From Ignavibacteria bacterium (lineage in GTDB: Bacteria; Bacteroidota; Ignavibacteria; Tepidaquicellales; Tepidaquicellaceae): DNA of 64,000 bases. Positions 7,241 to 37,219 of this stretch are shown piece after piece. Every line of letters begins with the position of its first letter. Position 1 is the first letter of the stretch. Location of the stretch: positions 1 to 64,000 of the forward strand of contig JAOADD010000038.1 in assembly GCA_026417495.1 (NCBI GenBank), in the 5' to 3' direction. Under the pieces are notes generated by a model that searched no databases, was not told the DNA's origin, and saw only the letters and a list, made by a program, of their open reading frames with translations. The translations under genes were made by a program, and so were the position numbers.

Positions 7241-8245
7241 ATGATAAACAATGGTAAATTCAACGCTTACATTAGTGCAGTAAGTCATTTTTTCCCTGAT
7301 AAAGTAATTACAAACAAGTACTTTGAAAGTTATCTTGATACATCAGATGAATGGATAACAGAAAGAACGGGTATTAAGGAAAGAAGATTTTTGGAAGAAG
7401 ACCAACCAACATCTTATGCAGCAACGAGAGCTATTGAAAGGTTAATGCAAAAAAGGGGTATAAGTGCAGATGAAATTGATATGATTATTATTCCTACTGT
7501 ATCACCAGATATGGTTTATCCTGCAACCGCGTGCATAGTGCAAAACAATATAGGAGCAAAAAATTGTTGGGGCTTCGATATGGAAGGTGCATGCTCTGGT
7601 TTCCTTTTTGGACTTATTACAGGTGCTCAATTTATTCAAACGGGTATGCACAAAAAAGTGATCGTTTGTGGTGCTGAAAAAATGTCTGCTCTTGTTGATA
7701 TGCAAGATAGAAATACCTGTGTGCTGTTTGGAGATGGTGCTGCTGCTGTATTATTAGAACCCACTGAAGATAAATCGTATGGTGTTTTAGATGCAATTTT
7801 ACATATTGATGGTAGTGGTGGTCAATATTTGAACCAACCAGCAGGGGGGAGCTTGCATCCTGCTTCTTTTGAAACAGTGGAAAAAAGAATGCATTATGTC
7901 CATCAGGACGGTCGTACTGTATACAAGGAAGCTGTTAAAGGTATGTATGAATCATCTGCTGAAATTATGAAAAAAAACAATCTTACTGCTGATAATATCG
8001 CTTATCTTGTTCCACACCAAGCGAATCTCAGAATTATGACCGCTGTTGCTGATCGGCTCGGTCTTCCACTCGATAAAGTTATGGTTAATATTCATAAATA
8101 TGGTAATACCACATCAGCGACAATTCCTTCTTGTTTGTCAGAATATTACGATGAAGGAAAAATTAAAAAAGGAGATTATATTATTCTGACTAGTTTTGGT
8201 GCTGGTTTTACTTGGGGAGCTATTCTCCTCAGATGGGCTATTTAA
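7241..8245 (+). CDS. fabH: 3-oxoacyl-[ACP] synthase III (KAS III)
   Basis: Condenses an acyl-CoA primer with malonyl-ACP to start type II fatty acid synthesis. The 334 residues carry the catalytic triad: Cys118 in GACSGF, His259 in VPHQANLRI and Asn289 in KYGNTTSATIP. The end GAGFTWGAILLRW is a typical FabH terminus. ATG at 7241 lies 5 nt after the clpC stop, so it is probably co-transcribed. The usual neighbours plsX and rpmF are 42 kb away at 49.8-51.1 kb, so the common rpmF-plsX-fabH cluster is split here. Confidence 0.96.
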   Translation: MINNGKFNAYISAVSHFFPDKVITNKYFESYLDTSDEWITERTGIKERRFLEEDQPTSYAATRAIERLMQKRGISADEIDMIIIPTVSPDMVYPATACIVQNNIGAKNCWGFDMEGACSGFLFGLITGAQFIQTGMHKKVIVCGAEKMSALVDMQDRNTCVLFGDGAAAVLLEPTEDKSYGVLDAILHIDGSGGQYLNQPAGGSLHPASFETVEKRMHYVHQDGRTVYKEAVKGMYESSAEIMKKNNLTADNIAYLVPHQANLRIMTAVADRLGLPLDKVMVNIHKYGNTTSATIPSCLSEYYDEGKIKKGDYIILTSFGAGFTWGAILLRWAI

Positions 8246-8246
8246 T

Positions 8247-9101
8247 ATGGTACTAAAATCATTAGCAAAAATAAATATTGGTTTAAGAATTTTATGTAAA
8301 AGGGGTGATGGATTTCATGATATTGAAACCATTTTCTATCCTGTTAATCTTTTCGATGAGATTGATATTGATATTAAACCATCTACAAAAAATACAAATT
8401 CATTAATAATTCAATCTGATAACCCTCATGTTCCCAAAGATAAATCAAATATTTGCTTTAAAGTAATTGCAAACTTTTTTAAAACATTTCAGATTAAAAC
8501 TTTTCACAAAATAAAAATAAAGATAACAAAGCGTATTCCAATTGGTGGTGGTTTAGGAGGAGGTAGTTCAAATGCTGCTGTTGTTTTAAAATATTTGATA
8601 AAATATTTTAATATTGAAATCTCCACAAATAGAAAAAACATTTTAACTGTTGCATCAAATACTGGTAGTGATGTTACATTTTTCTTATTTTCAAAACCCT
8701 GTTATGCAACAGGGAAAGGAGATAAAATTACATTATTAAATGATTTTAAAGTTGATTATGATATTCTATTGATTACTCCTTCTTTTAATATATCGTCAAA
8801 ATGGGCGTATGAATCGCTTAAACTTCCAAAAGACTATCGTAAAAGTCCATTGTTAAAGGATATAAAAACATTTCCTAAAGATGTATCTGTTCTTGAAAAT
8901 GATTTTGAAAAAGTAGTATTCAGAAAATATCCGGAGCTTGATAAAATAAAAAGAATTCTGTCTCAAAATGGAGCTATATTTACATCATTAAGTGGAAGTG
9001 GCTCTACAATTTATGGATTTTTTGAAAGAAATAATAAAAGTAAAATAAATAAATGTGCTGAACTTTTCAAAGCGGGGAATTATACAGTTAATATAGTTTA
9101 A
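8247..9101 (+). CDS. ispE: 4-diphosphocytidyl-2-C-methyl-D-erythritol kinase
   Basis: A GHMP-family kinase of the non-mevalonate (MEP) isoprenoid pathway. The first motif is MVLKSLAKINIGLRIL, the ATP loop is PIGGGLGGGSSNAAV and the third motif is LSGSGSTIYGFF near the C-terminus. The open frame extends upstream to 8196 inside fabH. The ATG at 8247, two bases after the fabH stop, gives a 284-residue protein of normal family length whose first residues fit the family start, so I chose it. It indicates that this organism makes isoprenoids by the MEP route. It ends the clpC-fabH-ispE run; 33 nt separate it from a convergent gene. Confidence 0.94.
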   Translation: MVLKSLAKINIGLRILCKRGDGFHDIETIFYPVNLFDEIDIDIKPSTKNTNSLIIQSDNPHVPKDKSNICFKVIANFFKTFQIKTFHKIKIKITKRIPIGGGLGGGSSNAAVVLKYLIKYFNIEISTNRKNILTVASNTGSDVTFFLFSKPCYATGKGDKITLLNDFKVDYDILLITPSFNISSKWAYESLKLPKDYRKSPLLKDIKTFPKDVSVLENDFEKVVFRKYPELDKIKRILSQNGAIFTSLSGSGSTIYGFFERNNKSKINKCAELFKAGNYTVNIV

Positions 9102-22069: not shown

Positions 22070-24121
22070 ATGAAAAAAAGTAAAGATAATAGTTATTTAA
22101 AAGATATTGACAATTATTTCCAATTATCGGATTTACAACTTATTGATGCTTATAAATATATGCTTTATGCTAGACTTCTTGATGATAGAAATGAAATGAT
22201 GATTAAACAAGGGAAAGCATATTTTTTAATTTCTGGTTCTGGACATGAAGCAATACAAGTTGCGGTTGCTATGGCTATGAAACCAGGAAAAGATTGGTTC
22301 TTTACTTATTACAGGGATACTGCATTAGGTTTAGCTGCAGGTTTAACAGTAAGAGATTTTCTCAGGCACATTATGGCAAAACAGACTGATGAGTTTACGG
22401 GTGGTAGGCAAATGAATTTACATATTGGAAGTAAAAGACTTAAAATGCCCACGGCATCTTCTCCAACTGGTTCTCAATATTTGCAGGCTGTTGGTGCTGC
22501 GATGAGTTGCGTTTATAGAAATGTTGATGAAATTGTATATGTTTCTGGTGGGGAAGGCTCTACATCTGAAGGTGAGTTTTTTGAAGCTGTGAATTGGGCT
22601 GCTCGTGAAAAATTACCTGTTTTATTTGTTATACAAAACAATTCGCTTGCTATTTCAGTACCTGTTGAAAATCAAGTTGCTGGGGGCTCTATTTATAAAG
22701 CTCTTTCTGGTTTTGAAGGTTTAAATAGATTTCATATTGATGGTACAGATTTCCTTTTAAGTTATGGTACAGCTAAAGAAGCAGTTAGACTTGCTAGAAA
22801 CGGGAAGGGCCCTTCATTGATATATGCAGATGTTGTCAGGTTACGCTCTCACTCTATTTCAGATTCCCAAGAAAAATATCGATCTAAAGAGTCGCTTGAA
22901 AGAGATAAGCAAAAAGACCCACTTTTAAAAATGGAAAATTTTCTTATTGAACACAAAATTCTAAATCCAGATGATATTAAAAATCTTAAAGAGCAAATAT
23001 TTAATGAAATTGCTGAAGTGAGTGAAGAAGTTTATAAAGAACCAAATCCCGATCCCAGTACAGTTGAGTATTATATTTATTGTCCTAAGGAGCAACAAAC
23101 TATTATTGAATATGAGAAGTGTGAAAAATATGGTGACCCTATTGTTATGGTTGATGCTATTAATCATGCATTGCATGAAGAAATGGAAAATAATCCTGAT
23201 ATGATAATTTATGGAGAAGATATTGCGGATAATAAGGGTGGTGTGTTTACGGCTACAAAAGGACTTTCAACAAAATTCGGAAATAAAAGGGTGTTCAATT
23301 CTCCACTTGCGGAAGCATCTATTGTTGGTACTGCTATAGGACTTGCTCTTACGGGTTTGAAACCAGTCGTGGAAATTCAATTTGCAGATTATATTTTCCC
23401 TGCTATGTTGCAAATCAGAGCTGAGTTGGCTATGTATAGGTATCGTTCAAATAACTCCTTCAGTTGTCCCGTTACAATTAGAGTTCCTTGTGGTGGTTAT
23501 ATTGGTGGTGGACATTATCACTCGCAATGTATTGAAGCTGTGTTTGCTAAAAGTCATGGAATTTATATTGCATTCCCTTCAAATGCTGCTGATGCAAAAG
23601 GATTATTAAAAACTGCATGTAGACTTAATGACCCTGTTTTGTTTCTTGAACATAAATTTTTATACAGACAAGCTTACGCGAAGTCACCTGAACCTGATAG
23701 AAATTACTATCTCCCCTTTGGAAAAGCAGCTGTTAAAGTTGAGGGAGATGATATTTCTATAATTACCTATGGTGCCATGGTTGAAAAAAGTATTAGGGCA
23801 TCGAAGGAAATGAAAAAATTGGGTGTAAATGTTGAAGTTATTGATTTAAGAACAATTGTCCCTTTGGATACAGAAACAATTTTAAATTCTGTGAAAAAAA
23901 CTGGTAAGGTTATCGTTGCTTATGAAGATTCTAAATTTCACGGTTTTGGCGCGGAAATTGCCGCACAAATAGCTGAATTTGCTTTTGAATATCTTGATGC
24001 TCCAATAAAAAGAATAGGTGCTCTGAATGTTCATATTCCTTTTCATCCTATTTTGGAAAAAGCAGTTTTACCTCAAGATGATTGGATTTTAAATGCCTGT
24101 ATTGAATTAGCAAAATATTAA
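22070..24121 (+). CDS. 2-oxoacid dehydrogenase E1, fused alpha and beta subunits
   Basis: The thiamine-diphosphate decarboxylase component of a 2-oxoacid dehydrogenase complex (branched-chain 2-oxoacid or pyruvate type). Residues 1 to about 340 form the alpha part, with FTYYRDTALGLAAG and the ThDP motif GEGSTSEG (161-168) ending in NN (190-191). From about 355 on is the beta part (VMVDAINHALHEEMENNPDMIIYGEDIAD, EASIVGTAIGLALTGLKPVVEIQFADY). The 683-residue fusion has the length expected for two joined subunits and the same order as fused E1 proteins of Bacteroidota. The E3 gene lpdA follows 24 nt later, but no E2 acyltransferase is in the window. Substrate choice cannot be decided by eye; the alpha part looks closer to the branched-chain type. 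Confidence 0.92.
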   Translation: MKKSKDNSYLKDIDNYFQLSDLQLIDAYKYMLYARLLDDRNEMMIKQGKAYFLISGSGHEAIQVAVAMAMKPGKDWFFTYYRDTALGLAAGLTVRDFLRHIMAKQTDEFTGGRQMNLHIGSKRLKMPTASSPTGSQYLQAVGAAMSCVYRNVDEIVYVSGGEGSTSEGEFFEAVNWAAREKLPVLFVIQNNSLAISVPVENQVAGGSIYKALSGFEGLNRFHIDGTDFLLSYGTAKEAVRLARNGKGPSLIYADVVRLRSHSISDSQEKYRSKESLERDKQKDPLLKMENFLIEHKILNPDDIKNLKEQIFNEIAEVSEEVYKEPNPDPSTVEYYIYCPKEQQTIIEYEKCEKYGDPIVMVDAINHALHEEMENNPDMIIYGEDIADNKGGVFTATKGLSTKFGNKRVFNSPLAEASIVGTAIGLALTGLKPVVEIQFADYIFPAMLQIRAELAMYRYRSNNSFSCPVTIRVPCGGYIGGGHYHSQCIEAVFAKSHGIYIAFPSNAADAKGLLKTACRLNDPVLFLEHKFLYRQAYAKSPEPDRNYYLPFGKAAVKVEGDDISIITYGAMVEKSIRASKEMKKLGVNVEVIDLRTIVPLDTETILNSVKKTGKVIVAYEDSKFHGFGAEIAAQIAEFAFEYLDAPIKRIGALNVHIPFHPILEKAVLPQDDWILNACIELAKY

Positions 24122-27527: not shown

Positions 27528-27977
27528 TTTAATTTTTCTTTTATTATAAAAAAATATTTCTAAATTTACAATTTATATGCACAACCACTATGAATAAATA
27601 TAGTCAATGGTAAAATTAAAAATAAAATATAAATTATTCTTTTAGCATACGAACTCAGAATTTAGTATAAGTTTCATCATATTTTTTTGAATCATATTAT
27701 TTTTATAAATATTTAATTGATTTATAAATGGAAATAAAGAAATAGAGTTTTTTATTATCTTTGCATAAAATAGTCCAATGGTTTATTTTTTTAATATTAT
27801 ACAAGATTCCGATGAAATTTGAAAAAACAACTTTTTAATTATAGAAAAACCACAAAAAATATGTAATTTGAACATATTTTTCATTATTTTTTTAAGTAAG
27901 CCTGTATCCGTTTAAAAAATTATTTTTTCTTTTGATATTATTCTTTTTTTATTTTATTTAAATATATATATTTAAAT
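27528..27977. other. 450-bp non-coding region with a possible promoter element
   Basis: This is the longest gene-free stretch in the window, between divergent xth and the HD protein gene. TATCTTTG at 27756-27763 is an exact match to the TAnnTTTG -7 element of Bacteroidota promoters, but no TTG lies at the expected upstream distance. If it is used, the mRNA leader for the HD gene would be about 210 nt. Only very short ORFs occur, for example an 8-codon ORF near 27812. I see no tRNA or known riboswitch fold. Confidence 0.4.
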
Positions 27978-27978
27978 A
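27955..27978. repeat. 24-bp perfect A/T palindrome at the start codon of the HD gene
   Basis: The two halves (TATTTAAATATA and its complement) are perfectly self-complementary from 27955 to 27978. The last base is the A of the ATG. It contains only A and T, so chance is not negligible, but its exact placement on the start codon is striking. It could be an operator for a dimeric regulator or a weak hairpin that hides the start. Confidence 0.5.
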
Positions 27979-29189
27979 TGAGACCTTATTTTGACATAAA
28001 AATGTTAATGCAAAATCCAAAGTTCCCTTATGCTATGGAGCTTTTGGAGTATTTTAAAAAGAGAACAGTACCTGATAAGGGTTTACTTGAAAAATTGTAT
28101 GGTGCTTCAAAGACTGATATATTGCAAAAACAAATTGGATTATTTTTTGAAAATAATTATAAAGAAAACTTCGTTATTAGGAAACATGATTATGAAGCAC
28201 CTGTTGAGATTTATAATACAAGAACGAATTTAGAGCAGGATTTAGATTATCAAAAGATTCATAATGATATCATAGAAGGACGAGAACCAGAATTATACTA
28301 TTTGCGAAAGTTTTATGGAAACTTTTCAGAACAAATTCAGTTTTTGTATTCTAAGTATTTAAAGTATAATTTAAAAAGAAGGTGTGAACTTCCTGCAGCA
28401 TCACATTTAAACAGAGTTGCTGGTGTAGCAATTAAGCTAAATTTTAATAGCGATGGCTCTTTTAAATATGGTGCTGTTGCGGGACTTCATGATGTAATTG
28501 AAGATCTATTTCCTGTAATTAAAGATGAGAATGGTAATCACTACGACTTTGAACATTATAAAGACTTTATTGAGAAATATATTCCTGAAGAAGTTAGAGA
28601 AGAAATAAAAATTTTATCTAATCATTATGATATGATTCTTGCTTACGTGGTTAAATATTTACGAGATACAGATAAGGCAATGACTAAAAATAACATACTT
28701 GATATGCTAAAATATATGACAAGTAAAGAACAATGGGAATTGAATAAGTATATAAGAAAAATGATTGTACTTATTGAGAAGGATAATTCACTGAATGAAA
28801 AGGAAATAATAGATGATATAAAATGGAAATGTTACTATGAACTGTATTTAAATGGTATTGCAACTGCTTCTAAGAGTATGAATAATTTCAGGTTATTCGA
28901 AATCAAGGGAATAGACCTGCTGGATAATTTTCATGGAAAAGATGTATTATCAGTTGATGGTAGAATAAGAAATATCAAGAAAAATATTATGTGGGCAAAA
29001 CTTGGATATAGTTTGTCGTCTACTTGGATGCCTTTGAATAATCATATTCGAGAATGCATGGAAGATGCTTTCGTAGCAGCTGAATGCATTGTATTGAGAG
29101 ACTTATTGCAAGAGCAATCCTCAATTGATTTTGTTATGGCTGGTTTGATTAAATTCAAGAAGTTAGAAGATGTCTTTTATATATCATAA
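27978..29189 (+). CDS. HD-domain protein with SpoT/Mesh1-like hydrolase motifs
   Basis: I do not recognise the full 403-residue protein. Its middle matches the metal-dependent HD hydrolase of (p)ppGpp hydrolases. SHLNRVAGVAIKL carries His143 (first metal ligand), AGLHDVIED carries His171-Asp172 and the Glu175-Asp176 pair of the HDxxED motif, and EIKGIDLLDN (about 309-317) resembles the later VKLADRLHN box, with Asp313 as the last ligand. No RelA-type synthetase domain is present. The N-terminal 130 residues and the long spacing between the second and third motifs are unlike small alarmone hydrolases of about 180-200 residues. It has no signal peptide or membrane helix. The gene stands alone, behind a 450-bp region and a palindrome. 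Alarmone or other nucleotide hydrolysis is a hypothesis. Confidence 0.6.
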   Translation: MRPYFDIKMLMQNPKFPYAMELLEYFKKRTVPDKGLLEKLYGASKTDILQKQIGLFFENNYKENFVIRKHDYEAPVEIYNTRTNLEQDLDYQKIHNDIIEGREPELYYLRKFYGNFSEQIQFLYSKYLKYNLKRRCELPAASHLNRVAGVAIKLNFNSDGSFKYGAVAGLHDVIEDLFPVIKDENGNHYDFEHYKDFIEKYIPEEVREEIKILSNHYDMILAYVVKYLRDTDKAMTKNNILDMLKYMTSKEQWELNKYIRKMIVLIEKDNSLNEKEIIDDIKWKCYYELYLNGIATASKSMNNFRLFEIKGIDLLDNFHGKDVLSVDGRIRNIKKNIMWAKLGYSLSSTWMPLNNHIRECMEDAFVAAECIVLRDLLQEQSSIDFVMAGLIKFKKLEDVFYIS

Positions 29190-34960: not shown

Positions 34961-37219
34961 AGTACCACGGGCGAAAACAATAAAATATCGGATATATTCT
35001 CATCAAAATCCAAGTTTAATTTTAATAAAAGTATTCAAATAAAAATTGCATTAGGGGTAGTTTTTATTATTATAATATCATTACTCTTACCTAAATATTC
35101 AGATGTTGAATTTGAATATGAAGAAGGAAATATTTGGACAAAACAGGATTTAATAGCACCATTTACTTTCCCTATTTATAAAGATAATCAGCAATATGAG
35201 AATGAGAAAAGAGAGGTAATTAAAAGTACCAAGCCCATTTTTATTGATTCTACTGTTGAATTAAATAATAAGGATAAGATAAATAATTTCTTTCAACAAT
35301 TTCAGACTTTATTACAGGATTTAAATAAAAGAATAAAAAAAACAAAGCCCTTAAATGAGGATACAATTTTTCAAAAAGGTGTATATGTTTCTGATGTGTT
35401 TATAGCAGGAGTAGAACTGGAGAAGTTATTCATTACTTACAGACAAAATACCACTAATTTTATATCTGTTAATTTTACAGATTTTATAGGTAATCTTAAA
35501 ACAAATTTAATAGATATTTCTTCCAAAAAAATAATTAATGCTAAAAAAGATACAATTTCTTCAAAAGAAATTTCAATTAAAAAGCATAATCAAAAATATT
35601 ACAATATAGAGAGTTTAGACAAAGTAATTGATATTGAGGAAGCAAGGGCATCTTTTGATAGAAATATTCTTCCTTTTGTAGTTGATGAGCAAGTTAAGAA
35701 TTTCGTTTTAAGATTAAGGGATATTTTTATTAAGGAAAATCTTTATTTTGATAAAGCATTAACAGAACTCGAAATCCAGAGCAAGATAGCTCAAATTCCA
35801 AAAACTGTTGGTATTGTTCTTGAGAATGAAAGAATAATTAGCAAACATGACCCGATTAATAAATTGACAAAATTGAAGTTAGATTCATATAAAAAGATTA
35901 GATTGGAAAATTTAGGGGTTCAGGATATTCTTAAACAATATGTAGGAAAAATTTTAATGAGTGTGCTCTTTCTATCTATTCTCACTATTTTCTTAACTAT
36001 AATTCGTAAAAGAGTATTTTCGGACAATTCTAAAATTACTTTGATTTTATCTCTAATTTTTCTTGAATCATTTTTTGCTTACATTAGTATACAAATTAAA
36101 ATTGATTTTCCTATCGAACTCCTTATATTTCTTCCTGTTTCCGCTATACTTCTAACAATTCTTTTTGACTCCAGGTTAGCATTTTTTGTTCAGATGGTTA
36201 TTATTATGATAACTGCTTCAATAAGAGGTGGTGATTTTTCAACTGGATTTATTGCTTACTGCGGTTCTGTATTAGCAATTTTTAGTGTTAGAGATATTAA
36301 AAATCGTTCTCAGATTTTCCGCTCAGCAATATTTATTTTCATTGGATATTCACTATCTATTATTGCTCTTGGGATGGATAAAATCCAAACTGAAAGCAAT
36401 ATCTTTACAGATTTAATTTTTGCTATTATAAATTCTGTAATGTCTCCAATTATTGCTTATGGCCTTTTAATATTTTATGAAAGAACATTTAAAATTACAA
36501 CTGATCTAACATTACTTGAATTAGCAGACTTTAATCATCCTTTACTTAAAAAATTATCTACTGTTGCACCAGGTACTTTCCATCACAGTGTGATAATGGC
36601 AAATCTTGCTGAAGCTGCTGCTGAAGCTATTGGTGCAAATAGAATTTTAACAAGGGTTGGATGTTATTATCATGATATTGGTAAAATACTCAAACCTGAA
36701 TATTATGTGGAAAATCAAATTGATAAAAAAAGTAAACATGAAAAATTAAACCCAACAATAAGTGCAAAGGTTATTATTTCACATGTAAAAGAAGGTATTG
36801 AACTTGCTAAAGAATATAAATTACCACAAGAGGTGATCGATTTTATACCAATGCATCATGGTACTACATTAGTTTCATATTTCTACCAGAAAGCAAAAAA
36901 TGTTGTTGATGAAGAAAAAGAAGACATTTCTGATTATATATATAGGTATCCTGGTCCAAAACCACAGACAAAGGAAACTGGTATTGTAATGCTTGCTGAT
37001 ACTATTGAAGCAGCAACTCGTACAATAGAAGAACCAACCCCAGGTAAACTTGAAGATAAGATTGATGAGATAATTAAAAAGAGATTCATAGAAGGTGAAC
37101 TTGATGAGTGTGAATTGACATTGAAAGATTTATCAAAAATTAAATTAGCATTTCTCAAAATACTTGTTGGAATACATCATCAGCGAATTAAATATCCCGA
37201 AGAAAAAACTGATGAATAA
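34961..37219 (+). CDS. pgpH: PgpH-type cyclic-di-AMP phosphodiesterase (7TM-HD), start codon absent
   Basis: A membrane HD hydrolase that degrades c-di-AMP. From 34961 the frame reads STTGENNKISD, then a membrane helix (IKIALGVVFIIIISLLLP), a large extracytoplasmic domain, about seven helices and a cytosolic HD domain. The HD domain has the first histidine in FHHSVIMANLAEAAAEAI, CYYHDIGKILKPEYY, IMHHGTT and MLADTIEAATR. Read from 34961 the protein is about 752 residues, the family size. No ATG, GTG or TTG is in frame before a GTG at 35396 that would remove the first helix and about 145 residues. The frame is closed upstream by TGA at 34958. A TTG in another frame at 34957 would join if one base were added near 34960. 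An indel or a rare ACG/ATA start is likely. Confidence 0.85.
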   Translation, partial: STTGENNKISDIFSSKSKFNFNKSIQIKIALGVVFIIIISLLLPKYSDVEFEYEEGNIWTKQDLIAPFTFPIYKDNQQYENEKREVIKSTKPIFIDSTVELNNKDKINNFFQQFQTLLQDLNKRIKKTKPLNEDTIFQKGVYVSDVFIAGVELEKLFITYRQNTTNFISVNFTDFIGNLKTNLIDISSKKIINAKKDTISSKEISIKKHNQKYYNIESLDKVIDIEEARASFDRNILPFVVDEQVKNFVLRLRDIFIKENLYFDKALTELEIQSKIAQIPKTVGIVLENERIISKHDPINKLTKLKLDSYKKIRLENLGVQDILKQYVGKILMSVLFLSILTIFLTIIRKRVFSDNSKITLILSLIFLESFFAYISIQIKIDFPIELLIFLPVSAILLTILFDSRLAFFVQMVIIMITASIRGGDFSTGFIAYCGSVLAIFSVRDIKNRSQIFRSAIFIFIGYSLSIIALGMDKIQTESNIFTDLIFAIINSVMSPIIAYGLLIFYERTFKITTDLTLLELADFNHPLLKKLSTVAPGTFHHSVIMANLAEAAAEAIGANRILTRVGCYYHDIGKILKPEYYVENQIDKKSKHEKLNPTISAKVIISHVKEGIELAKEYKLPQEVIDFIPMHHGTTLVSYFYQKAKNVVDEEKEDISDYIYRYPGPKPQTKETGIVMLADTIEAATRTIEEPTPGKLEDKIDEIIKKRFIEGELDECELTLKDLSKIKLAFLKILVGIHHQRIKYPEEKTDE

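Follow-up and report, generated by a model that had tools for sequence, protein, structure and literature searches.

The 64,000-nucleotide stretch of DNA analysed here (positions 1 to 64,000 of contig JAOADD010000038.1 of an Ignavibacteria bacterium; hereafter the window) contains at 27978–29189 on the + strand an open reading frame (ORF) of 403 amino acids (aa) with an ATG start. An earlier note had described the product as an HD protein with three motifs of the SpoT/Mesh1 type and had suggested a new type of alarmone or nucleotide hydrolase. The reading frame is open as described, and SHLNRVA (His143), HDVIED (residues 171–176), and IKGIDLLDN (Asp313) lie at the residues named. The features of the gene relevant to its comparison with RelA/SpoT homologue (RSH) hydrolases are the following.

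28377..28406, + strand: Arg-loop to putative metal His, residues 134–143 (RRCELPAASH), a gapless match by hhalign to RSH R-x-SGEPYxxH
28488..28505, + strand: HDxxED motif, residues 171–176, in which H, D, E, and D are invariant
28905..28928, + strand: third motif, K310-x-x-D313-x-x-D316-N317, present in 29/29 aligned and 2/2 further members, proposed counterpart of RSH KLADRxHN
27978..28292, + strand: N-terminal helical extra region, residues 1–105, with invariant Ala19, Pro32, Arg68, Ile78, Arg82, and Pro104
28509..28817, + strand: region separating the two site halves, residues 178–280, with ~80 residues more than RSH hydrolases

Conserved residues and distribution of the family

Among 391 genomes of the class Ignavibacteria, profile search recovered the family in 32; 29 of these matches form the rows of alignment A3, two (G486 and G477) were checked separately, and one (G025) was omitted. 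Eight residues, Arg134, His143, His171, Asp172, Glu175, Asp176, Asp313, and Asn317, are identical in all 29 rows and are kept in both further members, one of which is just 30% identical, for a total of 31 of 31 complete or nearly complete members. The motifs noted earlier are thus not a chance occurrence, and Arg134, Glu175, Asp176, and Asn317 are added as site residues whose roles had not been listed. Cys136, Arg146, Lys310, and Asp316 are likewise invariant in the 31 members; the most divergent member lacks His319 and Gly320, which all 29 aligned rows share. The eight site residues correspond to Arg44, His53, His77, Asp78, Glu81, Asp82, Asp144, and Asn148 of RelSeq, the last two pairs as proposed counterparts. 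Except for Glu81 and Asp82, these numbers are those of PMC13299517, according to which Mn2+ is held by His53, His77, and Asp144, guanine is contacted by Arg44 and Asn148, and the substitution R44Q or D78A abolishes hydrolysis.

The closest relative is an 82%-identical protein of Ignavibacteria bacterium Ch128a, encoded at the same position in the gene order, and comparison with this homologue indicates strong purifying selection on the gene (nonsynonymous divergence by the Nei–Gojobori method, NG86, dN 0.106; synonymous divergence dS near saturation, ~2.1). Of 20 matches obtained from 99 relatives, 18 are near full length, one is a fragment, and one is judged spurious. The fragment (G025, L019 1501–1767), on a 3 kb contig, preserves the 3' end of a family gene interrupted by three in-frame stops; it represents either a copy in decay or the edge of an assembly. 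The spurious match (G014, E 8.4e-4) lies inside a 250-aa ORF that is presumably nucleotidyltransferase-like, and the profile search did not return it.

Searches of cellular genomes with the profile were confined to the class and to a sample of the phylum Bacteroidota; in the latter the family occurs in 7 of 395 genomes, all of the same class (seven each by single-protein and profile search), and a single-sequence search of the genome contigs returned the close relative only. Because members of one taxonomic family mostly fall together in the tree, which needs 5 label changes against a minimum of 4, inheritance looks mostly vertical; the gene looks old, with many losses. A mobile origin was considered and rejected, given that no relative was found among 50,697 phage records or 72,556 plasmid records, that of 600 stretches of viral contigs fitting a pattern none was confirmed, and that the tree is near-minimal in label changes. 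No description of the family was found in the titles and abstract openings of open-licence PMC papers, a limited search that is not proof of absence.

Profile comparisons and predicted fold

The earlier note had proposed a profile search and a structure prediction. The HD_4 model (PF13328) matches one of the 29 members, at E 0.091 and below the cut-off. The family profile was also compared with 49 RSH hydrolase sequences, namely E. coli SpoT and, from the same class, 30 long and 18 short RSHs; of 20 short-RSH regions fetched, 2 lacked the motif and were dropped. Aligned to this set by hhalign, the family profile places Arg134–His143 and HDxxED in register with probability 87% and a single-pair E of 3.9e-6; its score of 49.6 exceeds those of all 60 column-shuffled controls (19.7 at most) and that of the reversed profile (16.3). 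Residues 134–143, with Arg134, Cys136, and His143 present in 29/29, are also the top match of an ungapped profile scan. Significant likeness to RSH is restricted to ~46 columns, and ~46–62 columns align well with RSH or small alarmone hydrolase (SAH) profiles.

The AlphaFold2 model, computed with 22 family sequences, is confident (predicted local distance difference test, pLDDT, 92.1; predicted template modelling score, pTM, 0.89). In the VIA-align comparison the first 15 rows are all RSH hydrolases (SpoT, MESH1, SAHs, and Rel; Z 8.5–11.9), including the bacterial hydrolases 7qoe and 6z3n, with SpoT 7qpr at the top (Z 11.9, 189 residues, 3.5 Å) and Rel having the lowest Z, 8.5. MESH1 (3nr1) aligns over 169 of its 178 residues with Z 11.6, a root mean square deviation (rmsd) of 3.2, and 17% identity. 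The first four Foldseek rows are Rel/SpoT as well, with probability 0.84–0.96 and E 0.38 or worse, and a search of a viral structure library gave nothing at E 0.001 or better; an unnamed protein of 212 residues there reached probability 0.91.

After the RSH set come phosphodiesterases, none above Z 7.4, and this raises the alternative that the protein is an HD phosphohydrolase of another, phosphodiesterase-like branch and that its likeness to RSH is convergent. Such entries, at Z 6.2–7.4 with ~200 residues aligned, and a weak match to the generic PHROGs family 'metal-dependent phosphohydrolase' (residues 138–176; seen in 5 of 29 members) are what this explanation can draw on. The RSH rows nevertheless score higher, most of them with lower rmsd, and the protein retains HD-x-x-ED together with an Arg loop placed nine residues ahead of the first His. 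The Glu-Asp pair marks RSH hydrolases. That Arg44 is such a mark is supported by PMC13299517. The phosphodiesterase-like assignment is considered unlikely.

By fold and site, the protein would instead be a remote, stand-alone, and enlarged member of the RelA/SpoT-type HD hydrolase superfamily that current models miss, a reading to which a probability of about 0.8 is assigned. Several results weigh against it. Foldseek returned no match at E 0.001 or better, and HD_4 leaves nearly all members unmatched. The hhalign comparison does not recover the segment containing Asp313 and Asn317, and in the ungapped scan the rank of Asp313 depends on the window, being 1/394 positions for ten columns and 8/390, 2/385, and 2/381 for longer spans. 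The genomic context adds no clear association with extra synthetases (2 of 17 family-positive genomes have such domains, as do 3 of the remaining 81; Fisher p 0.21) and no neighbour cluster common to the whole family among 20 sources, the neighbours varying by lineage. In these co-occurrence counts G098 was left out, and G025 and G014 were counted as negative. Finally, VIA-align Z values under ~13 can reflect an arrangement common to helical proteins; that the first 15 rows are uniformly RSH and that MESH1 is covered almost completely speak against this in the present case. Asp313 and Asn317 are proposed as counterparts of the later RSH Asp and Asn, weakly by sequence, and the third motif is accepted because it is invariant, keeps the K-x-x-D-x-x-x-N spacing, and agrees with the structural alignment. 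The suggestion of a new SpoT/Mesh1-like type of hydrolase is in part supported, by the predicted fold, by the profile match over the Arg loop and HDxxED, and by the eight invariant residues, and is weakest at Asp313 and Asn317.

Pfam, NCBIfam, and PADLOC gave no usable match for the family: NCBIfam returned nothing for the window protein, and both it and PADLOC returned single weak matches only for other members. Because HD_4 matches only one member, and that below its cut-off, the protein is not classed as a member of that Pfam family as the model stands. A Pfam TFIIE_beta match (E 0.00049, under its cut-off, 2/29 members) was rejected as a chance helix match. Against the sequences of solved structures the single protein found nothing, and the profile found unrelated weak matches only.

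Seven SAH subgroups have been distinguished (paSpo, pbcSpo, pbcSpo2, Mesh1, Mesh1-L, rickSpo, and divSpo; Atkinson et al. 2011, PMC3153485). The family shares with SAHs a single hydrolase domain without a synthetase, the Arg loop, HDxxED, the predicted fold, and H-x-x-R-V at the first metal His, which several SAHs of this class also have; its later Asp and Asn are putative counterparts of those of SAHs. It differs in its length of 403 aa compared with ~180–250 aa, in the N-terminal extension and the insertion, in being unrecognised by HD_4, and in a third motif K-x-x-D-L-x-D-N where SAHs have K-L-A-D-R-x-H-N. The protein is, as claimed, about twice the size of a small hydrolase such as human MESH1, from which it differs in the extra regions; the part that aligns with MESH1 begins near residue 107. 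With the hydrolase domain of bifunctional Rel/SpoT (7qpr, 7ohg, 1vj7) it shares the predicted fold (Z 8.5–11.9) and the eight site residues, Asp313 and Asn317 being proposed counterparts, and with RelSeq an Arg-to-His spacing of 9, but it has no synthetase, TGS, or ACT domain, and its significant sequence likeness is limited to the ~46 columns.

The N-terminal extension is present, although nearer 105 residues than the 130 first estimated, and a further ~80 extra residues are found between HDxxED and Asp313, such that His171 and Asp313 are 142 residues apart, compared with 67 between His77 and Asp144 of RelSeq (PMC13299517). Folded alone, the N-terminal 125 residues give pLDDT 86.4 and pTM 0.46, with helices in both models; no fold match was found for this region among 7 chains compared, none reaching Z 2.

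Leader and neighbouring genes

Two further features lie upstream of the ORF.

27955..27978, no strand: perfect AT palindrome of 24 nucleotides (nt), touching the start codon
27756..27763, + strand: TATCTTTG, which resembles the element TAnnTTTG, taken here to be the Bacteroidota -7 consensus

The long leader (450 nt) and the palindrome over the start codon are real. No other perfect palindrome in the window reaches 20 nt, and a leader of like composition would contain one of this length by chance with a probability of 0.002–0.0065. The leader and the palindrome are poorly conserved and carry little weight: in the closest relative the leader measures 136 nt and retains only an imperfect palindrome. 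TATCTTTG is a possible promoter element, judging by its letters. An STnc230 Rfam match was rejected at 24.8 bits, the gathering threshold being 50.

For the neighbourhood, 18 fetched regions, L021, and part of the window were combined as 20 sources and their ORFs clustered; the family ORF is retained in 19 of these, another ORF having been kept over the gene in L037. The gene is solitary, standing alone as described. The commonest neighbour clusters are a long secreted protein (6 sources) and a protein with a Por secretion tail (5 sources), each within one taxonomic family, and an MscS channel occurs in 4 sources; the neighbourhood thus offered no functional clue to build on. A short secreted protein with a Por secretion tail occurs beside the family gene as tandem copies, two in L028 (7867–9601), three in L030 (465–3258), and three in L032 (3834–6563), with a Pfam match for the L028 copy at 7867–8670. 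In a genome of the same genus (G001), ATP-grasp/CoA-ligase-like genes of one cluster flank the family gene on both sides (L027 4217–6325 and 7782–10469, − strand); the second, of 895 aa, seemingly has an added acetyltransferase-like C-terminus, as read from its sequence.

Within the window, a second and unrelated HD protein is encoded at 35396–37219 (+ strand), a 7TM receptor with an intracellular HD hydrolase (Pfam 7TM-7TMR_HD, HD, 7TMR-HDED) that is presumably of the PgpH type degrading cyclic di-AMP. A single 683-aa ORF at 22070–24121 (+ strand) is taken to resemble fused alpha and beta E1 subunits of a 2-oxoacid dehydrogenase, and is followed by an ORF that is presumably dihydrolipoamide dehydrogenase-like.

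Genomic setting and possible substrates

No match to the synthetase domain (PF04607) is found at the locus, as the earlier note had it, and the sole match in the genome is on contig C73, in a bifunctional Rel with intact hydrolase motifs, which is the one other RSH of this organism. Rel is also present in 16 of the 17 family-positive genomes examined, the exception being G027, a fragmented assembly. Its presence, together with the large extra regions, could suit a binding protein that uses the pocket as a sensor and is not an enzyme. Sensors usually lose some catalytic or metal residues, and here none of the 31 members departs from the proposed catalytic Glu175 and Asp176 or from any proposed metal ligand, so that a sensor is hardly to be expected.

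Some SAHs serve as antitoxins (PMC9765508), and the extra domains of the family protein could bind a macromolecule; removal of pyrophosphate from tRNA 3' ends, or another way of neutralising a toxic small alarmone synthetase, was therefore also weighed. The counts of extra synthetases do not favour it, no toxin-like gene recurrently adjoins the gene, and the proteins are slightly acidic (family median net charge −6, isoelectric point 6.0), which mildly favours a small-molecule substrate over RNA. Classical SAHs show no association with the family either (5 of 17 family-positive and 20 of 81 other genomes). With only single weak PADLOC matches besides, a toxin–antitoxin or defence role was set aside as very unlikely, and a housekeeping or signal-tuning role fits better.

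The best reading of these comparisons is that the protein would hydrolyse a nucleotide bearing a 3'-phosphate or 3'-pyrophosphate; (p)ppGpp or (p)ppApp is the likeliest substrate, at about even odds. One divalent metal, probably Mn2+, would be bound by His143, His171, Asp172, and Asp313, the purine would lie against the Arg134 loop and Asn317, and Glu175 and Asp176 would activate water for removal of the 3'-(pyro)phosphate; the ~105 N-terminal residues and the insertion between the site halves may gate or regulate the enzyme. Alternatively, the same fold and site may act physiologically on another 2'- or 3'-phosphorylated small molecule (NADPH, 3'-phosphoadenosine 5'-phosphosulfate (PAPS), or coenzyme A) or on an unknown nucleotide. 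The departure of the third motif from KLADRxHN, with Asp316 where RSH has His, the invariant Cys136, and the intact Rel already in the genome point in this direction, and according to PMC9765508 MESH1 also acts on NADPH and the example of XccSAH shows that a stand-alone SAH may accept several alarmones as well as NADPH. On the purine side, however, Arg134 and Asn317 are retained, as is the RSH loop spacing, and such a substrate is regarded as a possibility well short of even odds.

The RSH-type reading can be extended, speculatively and with rather low confidence, to an RSH-derived hydrolase class not described before and so far confined to this bacterial class, in which the substrate would be a 3'-phosphorylated nucleotide signal other than the (p)ppGpp of the resident Rel, and the N-terminal region and insertion would form a gate above the site, controlled by a ligand or partner.

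Alarmone enzymes are inventoried with sequence models, and a conserved family that has the full proposed catalytic set and yet escapes such models would mean, if the assignment is true, that the turnover of alarmones or related nucleotides is undercounted. The family would also provide a natural case in which the RSH hydrolase site has gained extra domains and an altered third motif, and could help to show what determines substrate choice.
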